Origin: Saprospira grandis DSM 2844
GTDB taxonomy: Bacteria; Bacteroidota; Bacteroidia; Chitinophagales; Saprospiraceae
DNA length: 64,000 nt
Assembly: GCF_000275825.1 (NCBI RefSeq)
Contig: NZ_JH719942.1
Span: 1,193,914-1,257,913 of the forward strand
Direction of reading: 5' to 3'
Part shown: one piece after another, positions 1,328 through 52,566 of the stretch
Numbering within the stretch: the stretch's first letter is position 1
How the letters are laid out: each line of letters starts with the position of its first letter
Notes under the pieces: model-generated
What the model was told of the DNA's origin: nothing
The model's input: the letters and a program-made list of their open reading frames with translations, nothing else
Databases searched by the model: none
Program-made: the position numbers and the translations under genes

Positions 1328-4228
1328 TTAGTAGTCATCAAAACGAGTTTTGTTCACCGGCAATTTAAGAAAGCCCAAGGAACCCGGACGCACCTGCACA
1401 AAGAAGTTCCAAGTCTGCTGCTCCGGCTGCCAACGCATGCCCATCTCCCAACAATGCAAGGATCGACTAAAACCAAAGTCCGGATAGGTAATCCGCTTTT
1501 TGTCAAAATCATAGCCCATTCTGTAAATCCGAATGTCCCAGTTTTTAGATAAACGAAAAGCTCCCGACATGGAAATCTCATTGGCCGTAAATTGTAAACT
1601 ATCCACCCCCTCTATATACGCTCGACTAAAGCGTAGGTTGTAGTTCAAACTCAATTGCTGAAGAATGTCAAAGGATTTGGCCTCTTCTTCTTTCTTGCTC
1701 TTCGATTTATAGGGGTCCGAAAATAATTGCTTGAGCGAGTTGGGGTTGATTTGCGTACTCAAGGCCAAAGCCCCAGAGGTGAAACGTGCCAAACGACCGT
1801 TTTTGGTCCACTCTAAGGTGTTTAAACGCCTATTGGTATTTTCATCGGCAATGTAGGGATCAAAAACCATAGAAAAAGTCGCATTGACCATCTTAAATAA
1901 GGTAGTGTTGGCGTTCAAGTTGATGGTGGACCAACGCAGACTGTCCGCCGCAAAGTTGTAGTTCCCCGATACATTCAAGTTGTTCAAGATCGGAAATTTG
2001 TTGCTCTTCTGTTTGCTGGTATCTCGACGAGAACGCTTGAGCTTTCCCTCTATCCGACTATTCAAACTATAGGTCAATAGGGCCTGCTCTCCCCCTGAGG
2101 GTACAGCATCAAAACGACGGTAGGTCGTCAGCTCATCTGGATAACGAGTGTCCGTTTGGACCTCTCCATAGTATCCCCAAAAATCACTCTGGTAGTCGGG
2201 CCGCCAACTTAAGCCAAGATTGGGACGAATGACCGCCCGCACCTTTTCTAAACGACCAATGTTATAGGTCCCCGTGGCAAAAAGCTGGGTACTCATGTTT
2301 ACCCCCGCACTAAAGTTCCGTACGGCATTAAAGCCATAGTCTCTAAATGTATTTAAGGTGCCAAAGGTAGTATCCGCATCAATATTTGAGATGATCGTCG
2401 GATCATCCTCATCATAGCTGGTGTCGGCAGAGATAACTAATGTGGGGTCAAAACTTTGCTCATTGGCGTAGAAGTACCAACTCTCCTGATAAGAAATAGT
2501 AGGCTGTACATTGATGTATTTAAATAATTTGAGCGATAAATTGACTCTTGGCGAATGCACCACCGAATATTTGGCCTCTTCCATCGCATCAGCCAAACCA
2601 TCTGCAGAAAAGAGCAAGCTGTCCGCAATCTGAAAGCTGTTGTTGGCCGTGGCCGAATAAGAAAATCCTATCCGCTCGTACCAACGCTGTTTGCCTAACT
2701 GTATCTTCCGCTGAAAGGGGTAGATTTGGTTCATGGTCAAGGTCGTTTGCGGAGCCGTAATGTTCATGGTATTGCTGCTGGTGTTCTGCGAGTGACGGGC
2801 AGCAATGGCCAAGGAGAAAGGAGTCCCCAAAAAGCGTTTGCTATAAGAAATACTCGATTGTAAGGTAGACTGCAAGGTCAAGTTGGCCGAGGGCTCGGTG
2901 TTTCTAAAGTAATCAGAGGTCCCTAAGTTTACACTGGCCGAAAAACTTTGGCTGGGGTGCGCCTTGGCATCCTGCTGATGGGTCCAGCTAATGTTAAAGT
3001 CTTTGAGCAAGCTATAATCTGGGGTGCCCGGCTCGTCCTCTACGGTCCGCGCATAGCTCATCCGAAAACCTCCAGAGGCCTTATAACGCATTTTATAGTT
3101 GGATTCTAAATTTACTCTAAAGGTCCCCCGAGTATAAAAGTCCCCCGTTAGTTTGAGGTCCATTTGGTCACTAATGACCTGATAATATCCAATTTCTCGA
3201 ATCCCCGCCCCCCAGTTTGGCGAAAAATCAATGTTTGTGCTGAGGATCAAGCCCGATTTTCGGCTGTTGGTGATCGGAAAAAAGCCAAAGGGCAAGGCCA
3301 AAGGGGTCGGACTTCCCATAATTTCTATAAAGGAAGGCCCTACCACAATCAATTTACCCGGAATCACCTTGGCCCGACTACTTCTCAGGCCAAAATGCGG
3401 ATACTTATGATCGCAGGTGGTGTAGGTGCAGCCCCCCGCATATAAAACGTCATTACTGGCCGTACTATCTCCCGATTTACTAATAAATTTAGTCGCTTTT
3501 GACAGAAAATAACCGTCGCCTTGCTCCGTGCTGGTATCAAAGACTTTCCCTTTTTTGGTCTTAAAGTTATACATGATTTTCTTGGCCTCAAACTTTTGGT
3601 TTCCATCCGAAAAGTAGGGCATTTCTCGAATCCCAGAGGGCTCGGTACTATCCGGAAAACCTCGGGCGGTAGCAATAGAAGTCAAAAAATCTACCTCAAT
3701 ATAGCCCGCCTTGAGCTGATAGCGACCATAGTTAATTTCTGCCGAGCCATAGAGATAAATCTTCTGGTTCATGAGGTCATAAATGGTCGAGTCCTTGGCA
3801 TCGTATTGCACGGGAGAATCTAGAGAATCGGGATTAAAGACAATAAGCGGCAGACTATCGGCCTGGCTCAAGGCCAAACTGTCGGTCCCACTACTATCTA
3901 TGGCCGCAAGGGCCATTTGGCTGCTATCGCTAGGCGGCAAACTATCTAAAGCTGGGGCATCAACGAGCTTATCCGTTTCCTTTTTTTGGCCTCCTCTGGC
4001 CTTGGGGTCTGTACTAGGCAGTTGATCGAGGCCCTCATCGCTAGCCGCTATTGTTGTATCGCTGGCGGGCAGTTGGGCCGCAGCCGCTTTGCGCGCTTTT
4101 TTTTCTGCTTGGAGGGCTTTGCGGGCCATTTTGGCCTGGGGCGTATAATAGGGATATCGGCAGGCAGATTGCCCCAAAAGGAGCAAAATGACGGCAGAAA
4201 AAAGGAAACTTTTTATCAATGCTTGCAT
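1328..4228 (-). CDS. lptD: LPS-assembly outer-membrane protein LptD (OstA family)
   Basis: It encodes 966 residues. LptD forms the outer-membrane barrel that inserts lipopolysaccharide delivered from the periplasm. An N-terminal signal peptide (MQALIKSFLFSAVILLLLGQ) precedes a low-complexity Ala/Asp/Ser stretch. The OstA jellyroll follows (about residues 95-215, with KIYLYGSAEINYG), then the conserved plug region (GGCTYTTCDHKYPHFGLRSS) and a long beta-rich barrel ending in an aromatic-rich tail (WNFFVQVRPG). I chose the ATG at 4228 because the 42 residues upstream are translated GC-rich repeat and would bury the signal peptide. The 5' end is duplicated at 1-375. The seven-T run at 3981-3987 is the site of the indel between copies. 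Confidence 0.88.
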   Translation of the reverse strand: MQALIKSFLFSAVILLLLGQSACRYPYYTPQAKMARKALQAEKKARKAAAAQLPASDTTIAASDEGLDQLPSTDPKARGGQKKETDKLVDAPALDSLPPSDSSQMALAAIDSSGTDSLALSQADSLPLIVFNPDSLDSPVQYDAKDSTIYDLMNQKIYLYGSAEINYGRYQLKAGYIEVDFLTSIATARGFPDSTEPSGIREMPYFSDGNQKFEAKKIMYNFKTKKGKVFDTSTEQGDGYFLSKATKFISKSGDSTASNDVLYAGGCTYTTCDHKYPHFGLRSSRAKVIPGKLIVVGPSFIEIMGSPTPLALPFGFFPITNSRKSGLILSTNIDFSPNWGAGIREIGYYQVISDQMDLKLTGDFYTRGTFRVNLESNYKMRYKASGGFRMSYARTVEDEPGTPDYSLLKDFNISWTHQQDAKAHPSQSFSASVNLGTSDYFRNTEPSANLTLQSTLQSSISYSKRFLGTPFSLAIAARHSQNTSSNTMNITAPQTTLTMNQIYPFQRKIQLGKQRWYERIGFSYSATANNSFQIADSLLFSADGLADAMEEAKYSVVHSPRVNLSLKLFKYINVQPTISYQESWYFYANEQSFDPTLVISADTSYDEDDPTIISNIDADTTFGTLNTFRDYGFNAVRNFSAGVNMSTQLFATGTYNIGRLEKVRAVIRPNLGLSWRPDYQSDFWGYYGEVQTDTRYPDELTTYRRFDAVPSGGEQALLTYSLNSRIEGKLKRSRRDTSKQKSNKFPILNNLNVSGNYNFAADSLRWSTINLNANTTLFKMVNATFSMVFDPYIADENTNRRLNTLEWTKNGRLARFTSGALALSTQINPNSLKQLFSDPYKSKSKKEEEAKSFDILQQLSLNYNLRFSRAYIEGVDSLQFTANEISMSGAFRLSKNWDIRIYRMGYDFDKKRITYPDFGFSRSLHCWEMGMRWQPEQQTWNFFVQVRPGSLGFLKLPVNKTRFDDY

Positions 4229-4257
4229 AGCTAGTATTCTGTTCTGATCTTTTTGGG
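3882..4257. repeat. Direct repeat, copy 2, at the lptD 5' end
   Basis: Partner of 1-375, with one extra T in the run at 3981-3987. The repeat ends where GMR locus 2 begins (GGGG at 4255). Confidence 0.95.
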
Positions 4258-4409
4258 GCTTGCCCGCCCTTCGGGCGGGCCGGGCTGTGTCAGGGCTCGC
4301 AGGCTTGCTCGGCCCTGCGCCAGCAAGCTGGCTGGCTCTGGCCCTTTGGGCCACCCTTATCCATCCCTAAGCCGTTTTGGCCTTCGGCCAAAGGGGCAAA
4401 GCCCCTTCA
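4255..4409 (+). repeat. GMR locus 2
   Basis: A GGGGCTTGCCC variant with stem 1 GCCCTTCGGGC and stem 2 GCCAGCAAGCTGGC. It lies directly upstream of lptD and supplies a false in-frame N-terminal extension to that gene. Confidence 0.88.
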
Positions 4410-9167: not shown

Positions 9168-10412
9168 CTAATCTTTGCGTTTGCGGGGGTGGTATTCATA
9201 AATAAACTCATCCTTATGTACAATGCGGTCATTTTTGAGCAGCTCTAGGCTGGCCACATTCCCCCATTTGTCATAGGTCAAACGCTCTTCTTCTTTTTCG
9301 TTACTCTCTCTATTGATTTTGATTGTTTTGATGCGGTTGCCATAATCATCATAGGCATATTGCACAATGCTCACCACCTGTTCATTTCGGCTTTTGGTTT
9401 GGACCAAAATATTGCCATAGACATCATACTCTGTATTGGTTACCCAAATGCTTTCTTTTTTAGAGCGCTTGCGTTTTTTCTCTCGGTCAAAGCGTTCGTT
9501 TTCGGTTTGGCGGATCAGCACACTATCTCGGTATTCATTGACAAACTCGCTGACGAACTTGCCCTCAATGTATTTTTTCCAGCGAATCAGAAAGCTATTT
9601 TCAAAGTAGCGAATATCTTTTCTGAAGAGTTTCCCATTGACCTTTTCTACGGTAATGGATTTAGTGAGGTAGCCATCTTGGTCCCTTTTATAGCGGGTTT
9701 TTATTTCTTTTCGGGGTTGGTTGGGTTCTTCCACCAGTTCTAAAGAGCGGATAACCTCTTCCTGTTTATTGTAGAACCAATTTCGCTGGCGGGTAACTAT
9801 TCCTTTCGTATTAAAGTACTGTTCTACCTCCTTATTTCCGGCCTCATCATAAGTGAGCAGATAGGTAATGGCCACCGAAGCTTGTTGGCCATCTACATAA
9901 GAAATTTCTTCAATTTTGTTCTTATTGTTCTTTTGGTCCCAATAAATCTTCACCTCTCTTTCTAGGAGATTATCGCCATTGTAGTGCAGGCTATTTTGGT
10001 GGCGGCCTCGGCTATCGTAGCTATGAATAATTTTGCGTTGGCTATTGAGGTTGCTGTCCAAGCTCATCTTAAAGTACTCTTCTCGAGTGACGGCTCCATA
10101 TTCATTAAAGTACTTTTCGGTTTGGGTTTGCAGCTCCAAGCCCTTATTGAGGGCTGGCACATAATGTTTTTGCTGCAGGAACTTAATCTGTGGTTTTTGG
10201 GCCAAGAGGAGCTGCGGCAAAAGGGCCAAAAAGAGGAGAAGAGCGAAGCCTCGGCCTAGCGCTGCGGAATAGTGGCCCGAAGGGCCAGACCGGCGCAGGC
10301 AAAGCCTGCGCTGGGCCGAGCAGACTTGCGAGCTATGTAGCATAGCGCCGACGAGCGCAGCGAGGCGGAGGCCCCTAACAGCAGAAAAACCAGATGTTTT
10401 GAGTATATTCAT
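9168..10412 (-). CDS. Secreted YD-repeat-like protein 2 with GMR inside its leader
   Basis: It encodes 414 residues. The leader starts MNILKTSGFSAV, is interrupted by about 43 residues encoded by GMR locus 5 (RGLRLAALVGAM to SAALGRG), then resumes with the hydrophobic core FALLLFLALLPQLLLAQ and its cleavage site. Removing the element restores an ordinary signal peptide. The mature part has YD-like units (YDSRGRHQNSLHYNGD, YDEAGNKEVEQYFNTKG, YDVYGNILVQTK, YDDYGNRIKTIK) and the paralog motif FENSFLIRWKKYIEG. It ends EFIYEYHPRKRKD. Initiation could also occur at the ATG inside the element (AMLHSS). Export may be altered by the long n-region. Function unknown. Confidence 0.75.
   Translation of the reverse strand: MNILKTSGFSAVRGLRLAALVGAMLHSSQVCSAQRRLCLRRSGPSGHYSAALGRGFALLLFLALLPQLLLAQKPQIKFLQQKHYVPALNKGLELQTQTEKYFNEYGAVTREEYFKMSLDSNLNSQRKIIHSYDSRGRHQNSLHYNGDNLLEREVKIYWDQKNNKNKIEEISYVDGQQASVAITYLLTYDEAGNKEVEQYFNTKGIVTRQRNWFYNKQEEVIRSLELVEEPNQPRKEIKTRYKRDQDGYLTKSITVEKVNGKLFRKDIRYFENSFLIRWKKYIEGKFVSEFVNEYRDSVLIRQTENERFDREKKRKRSKKESIWVTNTEYDVYGNILVQTKSRNEQVVSIVQYAYDDYGNRIKTIKINRESNEKEEERLTYDKWGNVASLELLKNDRIVHKDEFIYEYHPRKRKD
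10241..10376 (-). repeat. GMR locus 5, inside a coding sequence
   Basis: The minus strand reads GGGGCCTCCGCC, the variant core GCTCGCAAGTCTGCTCGG, a stem GCGCAGGCTTTGCCTGCGC, GGTCTGGCCC and AGCGCTAGGCC. It begins at codon 13 of YD protein 2 and keeps the frame open for about 43 codons. Confidence 0.85.
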
Positions 10413-15249: not shown

Positions 15250-15480
15250 ACCCAGCGGGAGGCGGCGCAGCCGCCTCGGCCACAACAAGGCCTTTAGGCC
15301 GCAGTTCGACGACCAAAGGGAGTAACCGATGCGGCGGGGTGGCCGTTAGGCCAGACCAAGGAGCCGAAGGCGACGCAGGGCCGAGCAGACCTGCGAGCCC
15401 CAAAGCGACAACAAGCCCTTTAGGGCGCAGTTCGACGACCAAAGGGAGTAACCGCCTGCCGCAGGCAGGAGGCCCCAAAA
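15250..15480 (-). repeat. GMR locus 7 with two nested GTTACTCC modules
   Basis: A long copy between the convergent ends of meaB and the RND gene. The submodule GTTACTCCCTTTGGTCGTCG (seen here as its complement) occurs twice, at about 15303-15327 and 15429-15452, each beside a hairpin of the CTTTAGG or CCTTTAGGGC kind. Confidence 0.85.
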
Positions 15481-19040: not shown

Positions 19041-19389
19041 TTTTGGGGCCTCAGCTGCGCTGCGCTTGCTGCGCTACGTTTACTCCCTTTGGTCGTCGAA
19101 CTGGCGCCCCTATAGGGGCTGGTTGTCGGGGCTCGCAAGCCTGCTCGGCCCTGCAGCCGCTTTCAGCGGCTTGGGTCTGCGGCTTCGCCGCCCCCCTCCA
19201 TATCGCTAGGCCAGCCAACGCTTGGTCCTTGCGGCTAGAGAAGCGGGCTGCGCCCGCTTCGGCTTAGGGATGGATAGCAGTGGCCCAAAGGGCCAGACCA
19301 AAGGCAGGCGAAGCCTGCCTGCAGGGCCGAGCGAGCAGCGAGCTGCGACACAGCCCGGCCCGCCCAAAGGGCGGGCAAGCCCCAAAAAA
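19041..19389. repeat. GMR locus 8, two copies in opposite orientation
   Basis: A plus-oriented copy (19041-19215) carries a nested TACTCCCTTTGGTCGTCG module (19080-19129). A minus-oriented copy (about 19256-19389) follows it. The pair fills the gap between adaptor and pump genes of one operon and should therefore be transcribed. Confidence 0.85.
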
Positions 19390-24078: not shown

Positions 24079-24644
24079 CTCCTATTATAGTAGTTCTACT
24101 GTTCCAATACACTAGTTGTAGTGCTCGCATACCGTAGCTATACTGTATGATTGAGGTAGTCAAAGTCCTCTATATACGTTATGGAAGTGTATAACATACG
24201 TTGTGTAAGTGTATGATATAGGTTGTGGAACTATATCATATAGGTTATAGAACTGCATAATATAGGTTGTAGGACCCCAAATAGACGTTCCAGGACGTCT
24301 ACTTTGGGGTCCCTAGACGTCTATTTGGGGGTTAAGGGACTTATCTCATGGGGTCTAACAACCTATACAATAGAGTCCAGAACGTACCTAATGGGGTCTA
24401 GGGACCTCCTCCATGGGGTTAGGGGACCTATATCATACAGTTCGAAACGTCTATTATGGGGTTGAGGGACCTATCTCATGGGGTCTAACAACCTATACAA
24501 TAGAGTCCAGAACGTACCTAATGGGGTTGAGGGACCTACTCTATAGGGTTAGGGAACCTATATCATACAGTTCGGAACGTCTATTATGGAGTTGAGGAAC
24601 CTATATCATAGAGTATAACCACCTCTATTTAGGTTTTGGGGACA
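24079..24644. repeat. Degenerate 22-bp-period tandem array A
   Basis: About 26 consecutive units of 22 bp (three are 20 bp: 24167-24186, 24451-24470, 24581-24600). Early units share ATATAGGTTGTGGAAC; later ones share ATGGGGTTnAGGGACC. A higher-order 130-bp duplication (24341-24470 and 24471-24600) differs at about 10 positions. The period is not a multiple of three and no gene lies here. Units 24271-24314 form an 18-bp hairpin (GGACCCCAAATAGACGT with its complement). Confidence 0.8.
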
Positions 24645-37190: not shown

Positions 37191-37331
37191 TGCAGGCGGC
37201 GAAGCCGCCGCAGGCTTAGGGATGGACAGCAGTGGCCCGCAGGGCCAGACCGAAGCGCTTTAGCGCTGAAGGGCCGAGCGAAGAGCGAGCTGCGAAACAG
37301 CCCGACCCGCCCAAAGGGCGGGGAAGCCCCT
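37191..37331 (-). repeat. GMR locus 16
   Basis: Between the OmpA-like gene start and the 3' end of the surface-protein gene. Stem 4 GGCGGCGAAGCCGCC, stem 2 GCGCTTTAGCGC, stem 1 CCCGCCCAAAGGGCGGG. Confidence 0.9.
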
Positions 37332-40777: not shown

Positions 40778-40778
40778 G

Positions 40779-40851
40779 TGATTTCGCCGGGGTTCGAACC
40801 CGGGACCCTTTGATTAAAAGTCAAATGCTCTACCAGCTGAGCTACGAAATC
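40779..40851 (-). tRNA. tRNA-Lys (anticodon UUU), copy 3 in transcript order
   Basis: A 73-base cloverleaf: acceptor GATTTCG/CGAAATC, anticodon loop CTTTTAA, T-arm GGGTTCGAACCC, discriminator A. Identical in body to the two upstream copies. Confidence 0.95.
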
Positions 40852-40887
40852 AACCTAAAAGGCTAAACTCTATATAAACTTTTCTTG

Positions 40888-40960
40888 TGATTTCGCCGGG
40901 GTTCGAACCCGGGACCCTTTGATTAAAAGTCAAATGCTCTACCAGCTGAGCTACGAAATC
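40888..40960 (-). tRNA. tRNA-Lys (anticodon UUU), copy 2
   Basis: Same 73 bases as its neighbours; spacers of 36 and 33 bases differ in sequence, so the copies are tandem genes in one probable transcript. Confidence 0.95.
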
Positions 40961-40993
40961 AATCCAGAAATTTAGCCTCTATATTATATGTTG

Positions 40994-41066
40994 TGATTTC
41001 GCCGGGGTTCGAACCCGGGACCCTTTGATTAAAAGTCAAATGCTCTACCAGCTGAGCTACGAAATC
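40994..41066 (-). tRNA. tRNA-Lys (anticodon UUU), copy 1
   Basis: First of three identical copies in transcript order. The promoter should lie in 41067-41170. Confidence 0.95.
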
Positions 41067-51927: not shown

Positions 51928-51950
51928 CTGTTGTGGAGAGCTACTTTTAG

Positions 51951-52566
51951 CCATCAAGAGGGGTTCCCATACCCATCAGGAGGGGTTCCTATACCCATCA
52001 AGAGGGGTTCCCATACCCATCAAGAGGGGTTCCCATACCTATCAAGAGGGGTTCCCATACCCATCGAGAGGGGTTCCCATACCCATCGAGAGGGGTTCCC
52101 ATACCCATTCGCAGGGGGTTGGCTAGCCCTCTAGGGGGCTAGCCTTAGTCCTCCCAAGGGCTATTCCTAATCATTAGGACTATTCTTCTACCTCCAAGCG
52201 AGGGCTTGTCTTAGTCCTCCCAAGGACCTAATCAAATCCTCTTGAGGGGCAGCTCTAATCCTCTAGAGCTGGCCTCCTAGTCCTCAGGACCATTCTTCTA
52301 CCTAAAGAGGAGGACTTAGGCTAGTCATCGGCAGGACTTGAACTGCTCCAAAGGAGGACCTATAGAGGTCCTCTAGAGCAACTAGACCTATAGTATAGAG
52401 GACTTGAATAGGCCCAAAAGAGGAGCTACAGAAGCCCTCTAAAGGACCTCCCCTGCCCCAAGCGAGGACTTGGACAAGTACTATTGAGGAGCTATACAAA
52501 TACAAGCGAGGAGCTCACTAAGTCCTGCTGAGGGGGTTCAGTACTCCTCGCCCTTATTTCAGTCCT
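51951..52566. repeat. Degenerate 22-bp-period tandem array B
   Basis: Seven near-identical 22-bp units (51951-52104; core AGAGGGGTTCCCATAC) pass without change of register into at least 20 diverged units (52105-52544, partial to 52566). In the diverged part the best-kept positions are a pyrimidine-rich start (TCCTC) and AGGR at positions 9-12 (for example GAGGACTT). Twenty-seven units keep exactly 22 bp with no insertion or deletion. No gene is present. Confidence 0.85.

Follow-up and report, generated by a model that had tools for sequence, protein, structure and literature searches.

Within the 64-kb window, by which we mean the whole stretch of DNA that was analysed (G000:C2:1193914-1257913, Saprospira), a palindromic repeat lies in the reading frame of a predicted exported protein. 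With a probability of roughly 0.77, we interpret it as an old repeat with several stems, which is tolerated as an in-frame passenger in a Sec signal peptide and kept as paired nucleic acid. The gene would thus be a tangible non-Rickettsia case in which selfish palindromic DNA is apparently translated and tolerated. A suggested reason for the tolerance is that signal peptides are cut off, so that an in-frame insert at this place costs little.

The repeat copy in the leader of the focal gene

The YD-repeat match of the 414-aa protein is weak (TIGR01643, 22.1 bits at a cut-off of 15.8; PF05593 slightly below its cut-off). Orthologues were found in the two sister species G001 (S. grandis Lewin) and G002 as well as in G004, Aureispira and G061. 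An earlier note on this DNA had assigned a repeat copy to positions 10241-10376 and described a leader that begins with MNILKTSGFSAV and resumes with GFALLLFLALLPQLLLAQ. Both statements were confirmed, the boundaries of the copy moving slightly inward (Table 1); the order is MNILKTSGFSAV(R), repeat, GFALLLFLALLPQLLLAQ. The signal core has a mean Kyte-Doolittle value of 2.87 (11 residues). The copy matched the full length of the family's covariance model (positions 1-126; E = 2.6e-15 and 92.5 bits by cmsearch) and reached 69 bits in nhmmer with the HMM built on window copies, scores that are not independent as the copy itself was among the training sequences. It forms 27 of the 30 consensus pairs and is 77-89% identical to other scored places of the same genome.

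Table 1. Positions of the focal gene, its leader and related repeat copies (window coordinates unless a locus is named)
Feature	Position	Strand	Evidence or occurrence
Predicted exported YD-repeat-like protein gene, 414 aa	9168..10412	-	ORF from ATG10412, TIGR01643, orthologues
Start codon and pre-repeat leader MNILKTSGFSAV plus one base	10376..10412	-	ATG and upstream flank kept in G001, G002, G004
Complete repeat copy, 123 nt (41 codons), gene-sense orientation	10253..10375	-	nhmmer, full-length cmsearch, pairing
In-frame ATG inside the repeat, codon 24; possible alternative start	10341..10343	-	Sequence read
Signal peptide core and cleavage region directly past the repeat, GFALLLFLALLPQLLLA with putative cleavage before Q	10200..10250	-	Hydropathy; cleavage site predicted
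Adjacent intergenic family copy, 121.1 bits	9016..9133	+	nhmmer/cmsearch; same site in G001, G002, G004
CHAT/TPR protein, repeat after the start codon and ahead of the signal core, no later start	L104:7285-10083		Also in G004, G000, G002
DUF4292 lipoprotein, repeat after the start codon and ahead of the signal core, no later start except for a TTG in G004	L087:2422-3366		G000, G001, G004

As had been proposed, the repeat resides in frame within the signal peptide, since the 123 nt between ATG10412 and the hydrophobic core are free of stop codons in the source genome (G000), G001 and G002. However, approximately 72% of the family copies are open in any one sense frame, so that the open frame of the focal repeat says little by itself, and we rejected the argument that it proves translation. 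Many ORFs here seem to begin upstream of a repeat merely through its openness, e.g., at 37213-37330 of the window, where an ATG is present downstream of the repeat. Because of such a later start codon, most members of the general class of ORFs that traverse a repeat at a gene start were rejected.

The focal repeat could be untranslated as well, the true start being located downstream of it or inside it and the upstream ATG being there by chance. Other repeat-crossing ORFs of the genome are artefacts of this kind, the ATG inside the repeat could serve as a start, and in their description of REPs at the N-termini of ORFs Di Nocera et al. 2013 (PMC3733652) cautioned that many of them are untranslated. 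Nevertheless, we think this quite improbable. The sequence from the end of the repeat to midway through the core contains neither ATG, GTG or TTG nor ATA, ATT, ATC or CTG, and G004 has conserved the upstream ATG and its flank, this ATG giving a normal leader there. These two features set the focal gene apart from the ORFs mentioned above. Even with initiation at the internal ATG, about 30 repeat codons would be translated. Thus, if the signal peptide is made, the repeat should be at least partly translated, which agrees with the earlier suggestion that the element can be translated. Translation likely crosses the repeat, beginning at ATG10412 or, failing that, at the ATG within the repeat; a predicted tryptic peptide encoded by the repeat is, e.g., SGPSGHYSAALGR.

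Copy number, pairing and conservation of the repeat

By HMM search, 25 copies of the family were detected in the window and 157 in 464 kb of G000; extrapolated from the latter, a genome contains about 1,500 copies, approximately one per 3 kb. The copies extend from GGGGC... to ...RGCC, and most of the full-length ones measure 113-134 nt. A covariance model trained on 21 window copies identified 109 copies in 292 kb. In the family alignment, standard pairs made up 94.4% of the pair cells compared to 74.4% in shuffles, and changes on both sides occurred in 23 of 30 pairs, figures which are favoured by the fitting of the alignment to the structure. Sliding the partners by 1-3 columns decreased pairing to 33-58%. 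The terminal helix comprises five pairs. With one invariant G-U pair set aside, G-U cells (30) were not commoner than A-C cells (41). Owing to this missing preference for G-U, the stems look as if they are maintained as pairing of DNA.

At gathering scores, Rfam matched only tRNAs in the window, and a strong repeat copy gave no sensible match (E up to 5). On account of this result and of the missing G-U preference, we rejected the repeat as an RNA gene. Among the tRNAs are three near-identical tandem copies of tRNA-Lys (TTT) at 40778-41066.

We also considered that the folded repeat, situated early in the mRNA, may act as a control element of translation or mRNA stability. The predicted fold (-60.5 kcal/mol, z -2.5) and the covarying structure would suit this role, but the counts of G-U and A-C cells point to pairing at the DNA level, and the other two leader copies described below (CHAT/TPR, DUF4292) differ in sequence, one of them lying in the opposite orientation. 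The chances of such a control element appear poor to us.

For the focal segment, conservation could be compared in three genomes. G000, G001 and G002 differ at eight sites, all of which are unpaired (hypergeometric P = 9e-5) in a consensus-constrained fold that leaves one third of the bases unpaired. The variable sites are distributed 3:2:3 over the codon positions, and between G000 and G001 third-position changes account for 3 of 7 in the repeat versus 53 of 64 in the mature part. With unpaired variable sites and no codon-position bias, this small comparison points one way, to conservation as base-paired nucleic acid. The segment is apparently not conserved as protein; such protein conservation had been named before as an outcome that would speak against a moving DNA repeat. 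The leader and the first 12 codons of the focal gene are fast-evolving, indicating weak selection on the leader as protein. Taken by itself, the constant length in the three genomes has no significance, because length was also kept, or changed in steps of three, in 23 of 40 full-length orthologous pairs from G000 and G001. With its basic character and a short hydrophobic run, the encoded stretch might have been turned into useful protein, serving for instance as a second signal peptide (LAALVGAML...VCSAQ) or as a functional n-region. We consider this very improbable in view of the missing third-position bias, the restriction of the changes to unpaired bases and the fact that G004 manages without most of the segment.

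Related copies also exist in other genera (at least 138 matches in G041 and at least 150 in G102). Two members of the same GTDB genus, G003 and G005, do not contain any family copy, while about 1,500 each were extrapolated for four other members. Candidate RAYT genes (Y1_Tnp) are present in one to three copies in each of six genomes including two repeat-free ones. Neither these genes nor a reverse transcriptase were informative as candidate movers of the family, since both also occur in repeat-free relatives.

Some copies contain a second module (GGTTACTCCCTTTGGTCGTCGAACTGC...TTGTTGT), which is nested in the repeat or replaces its middle (window approximately 15324-15480 and 19101-19212). It was also encountered at some sites in G001 and G004, and orthologous copies may differ through exchange of this module, suggesting that the repeats are mosaics. 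At a median identity of 80%, orthologous intergenic copies of equal length in G001 and G004 are less alike than the DNA around them (approximately 87%). Of 52 full-length orthologous pairs, 30 had length differences not divisible by three. Judged by this comparison, the positions of the intergenic repeats are kept while their contents change fast. In addition, one copy is adjoined by a tandem array of about eight 22-nt units (CATACCCATCAAGAGGGGTTCC and variants) at 51948-52123 of the window.

Age of the insertion

The earlier note had regarded the focal copy as evidence that the family moves or spreads by insertion. Compared to other genera, an insertion is well visible. Orthologues from Aureispira (L030/L043) and G061 (L044) possess plain leaders of about 20 aa, and no repeat copy was found in the Aureispira and G061 genomes; thus, the segment was gained in the Saprospira lineage. 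The part of the claim that concerns present movement was not supported. The search for an empty site in related strains failed, as G001 and G002 carry the same insertion of exactly 123 nt as G000, and G004, which shares about 87% DNA identity (the others about 93%), has a leader that is shorter by 37 codons (111 nt missing) and keeps repeat-like sequence. The expectation of a normal leader without the element was met in part, because the G004 leader forms a good signal peptide from the conserved ATG while the repeat-like sequence is still there.

By counting alone, a segment present in three genomes and absent from the distant fourth would be equally parsimoniously explained by a recent mobile insertion in the ancestor of G000, G001 and G002 after the split from G004, which would then represent the empty site. 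We consider such a recent insertion unlikely. The G004 leader gave a better alignment with the repeat-containing form of the gene than with the repeat-free form (score difference 48 versus a shuffled mean of 12-16). The shuffles gave P values of 0.0013 for the whole middle and 0.0003 for the first 26 bases, with the reservation that the remnant comprises only about 26 nt and that the test was devised after it had been seen. At the beginning of the repeat G004 has the codons LRL with synonymous differences. At a second G004 site both ends of a repeat are kept and the middle is missing. Judging from these alignments, the focal site of G004 appears to have been trimmed and not to have lacked the insertion from the start.

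Mapping of sites between G001 and G004 (1.08 Mb, flanks of about 350 copies each way) led to the same reading. In one direction 276 of 283 mapped sites were present and 7 absent, in the other 283 of 286 were present and 3 absent, corresponding to 97.5-99% common sites among those that could be mapped; 61 and 70 sites (about a fifth) were unmapped. When aligned, most of the sites initially scored as absent proved to contain remnants, replaced middles or larger rearrangements. Among the absent sites inspected, no clean flank-to-flank empty site was found that would reveal a target-site duplication. On the basis of this mapping we rejected fast mobility, and the repeat family is, as far as these genomes tell, fixed in place today. 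Shared sites, the lack of a clean empty site among some 280 mappable ones each way and the remnant in G004 indicate that the focal insertion is old; it is best read as real but old and partly deleted in G004. The family is very large, keeps its places between species that share 87% of their DNA sequence, and has no Rfam entry. Its strong stem covariation without RNA-type wobble makes the spread and upkeep of the family a testable question.

We therefore propose the following course for the old passenger repeat. In the stem lineage of the S. grandis clade, a palindromic repeat of about 120 nt would have landed downstream of the start codon and upstream of the Sec hydrophobic core, where its 41 codons without stops did not interrupt the gene. 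Ribosomes starting at ATG10412, or at the ATG inside the repeat, would read through the segment and give a long basic n-region. Signal peptidase would then remove the repeat-bearing leader, leaving the mature protein unchanged after export, so that the segment would be tolerated, presumably neutrally, and not used. It would persist and change as base-paired nucleic acid like its approximately 1,500 relatives, most of it being lost later in G004 through an in-frame deletion.

Other export leaders and known repeat systems

In G001, a stretch of 1.08 Mb with 344 copies contained three genes with a leader-embedded repeat, corresponding to about 1% coding copies, and all of them concern export leaders. 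Besides the focal gene, they encode a CHAT/TPR protein and a DUF4292 lipoprotein (Table 1). In the DUF4292 orthologues of G003, G005 and Aureispira the leader is plain and about 20 aa long (MKFNYLAKLCLLLLLPVFFTSC, MNFNYIKSFALVLGIMLFLFSC, MNNLRWLWWLSLVLLMGAC). In the repeat-bearing lipoprotein gene the original ATG has seemingly been replaced by the edge of the repeat (PKKQYLEF...); in G004 one TTG shortly precedes the core, making a later start possible there. A fourth candidate in G000 contains a double repeat in front of GLQRRPQLLLIILAFLLPVLASAQ. Export leaders may be a recurrent landing ground, and in some genes, most clearly the DUF4292 lipoprotein gene, the repeat might now supply start codon and n-region, a possibility that we put forward tentatively and with more doubt than trust. 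If true, a selfish DNA palindrome would be an obligatory part of gene expression in such leaders.

The closest precedent are the Rickettsia palindromic elements (RPE), in-frame palindromic repeats of which RPE-1 at protein N-termini has been reported to be expressed (PMC3733652, PMC10969869). Like the RPE (approximately 100-150 bp), the focal repeat lies in frame in a protein gene and is apparently tolerated, and it probably works like an RPE insertion. However, RPEs are often located inside cytoplasmic proteins, whereas only about 1% of the Saprospira copies are coding, those being in export leaders. The Saprospira family also has different ends, belongs to another phylum and comprises about 1,500 copies. 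As the Saprospira copies lack the CGTC end tag of RPE-4 and RPE-6, we do not file the case as an RPE; the comparison covered the arrangement and the end tag.

High-copy, mainly intergenic palindromic repeats are also known as REP/BIME with RAYT transposases, but REPs are 20-40 bp long and have a GTAG or CGTC tag, while the Saprospira units, about 115-134 nt long, have several stems and the ends GGGGC...GGCC. MITEs such as ERIC and Nezha are likewise short structured elements without own genes, some of which give in-frame fusions. They differ by terminal inverted repeats of 15-30 bp, instead of which the Saprospira family has about five terminal pairs. In a literature search that did not extend to the S. 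grandis genome paper, no published description of this family was found.

Other repeated DNA was noticed in the window as well. Two stretches of approximately 380 nt (1-379 and 3882-4261) are 99-100% identical, suggesting a recent duplication or gene conversion. A tandem or near-tandem repeat with a period of 65 nt is located at 24317-24576, its 130-nt stretches being 64-92% alike.
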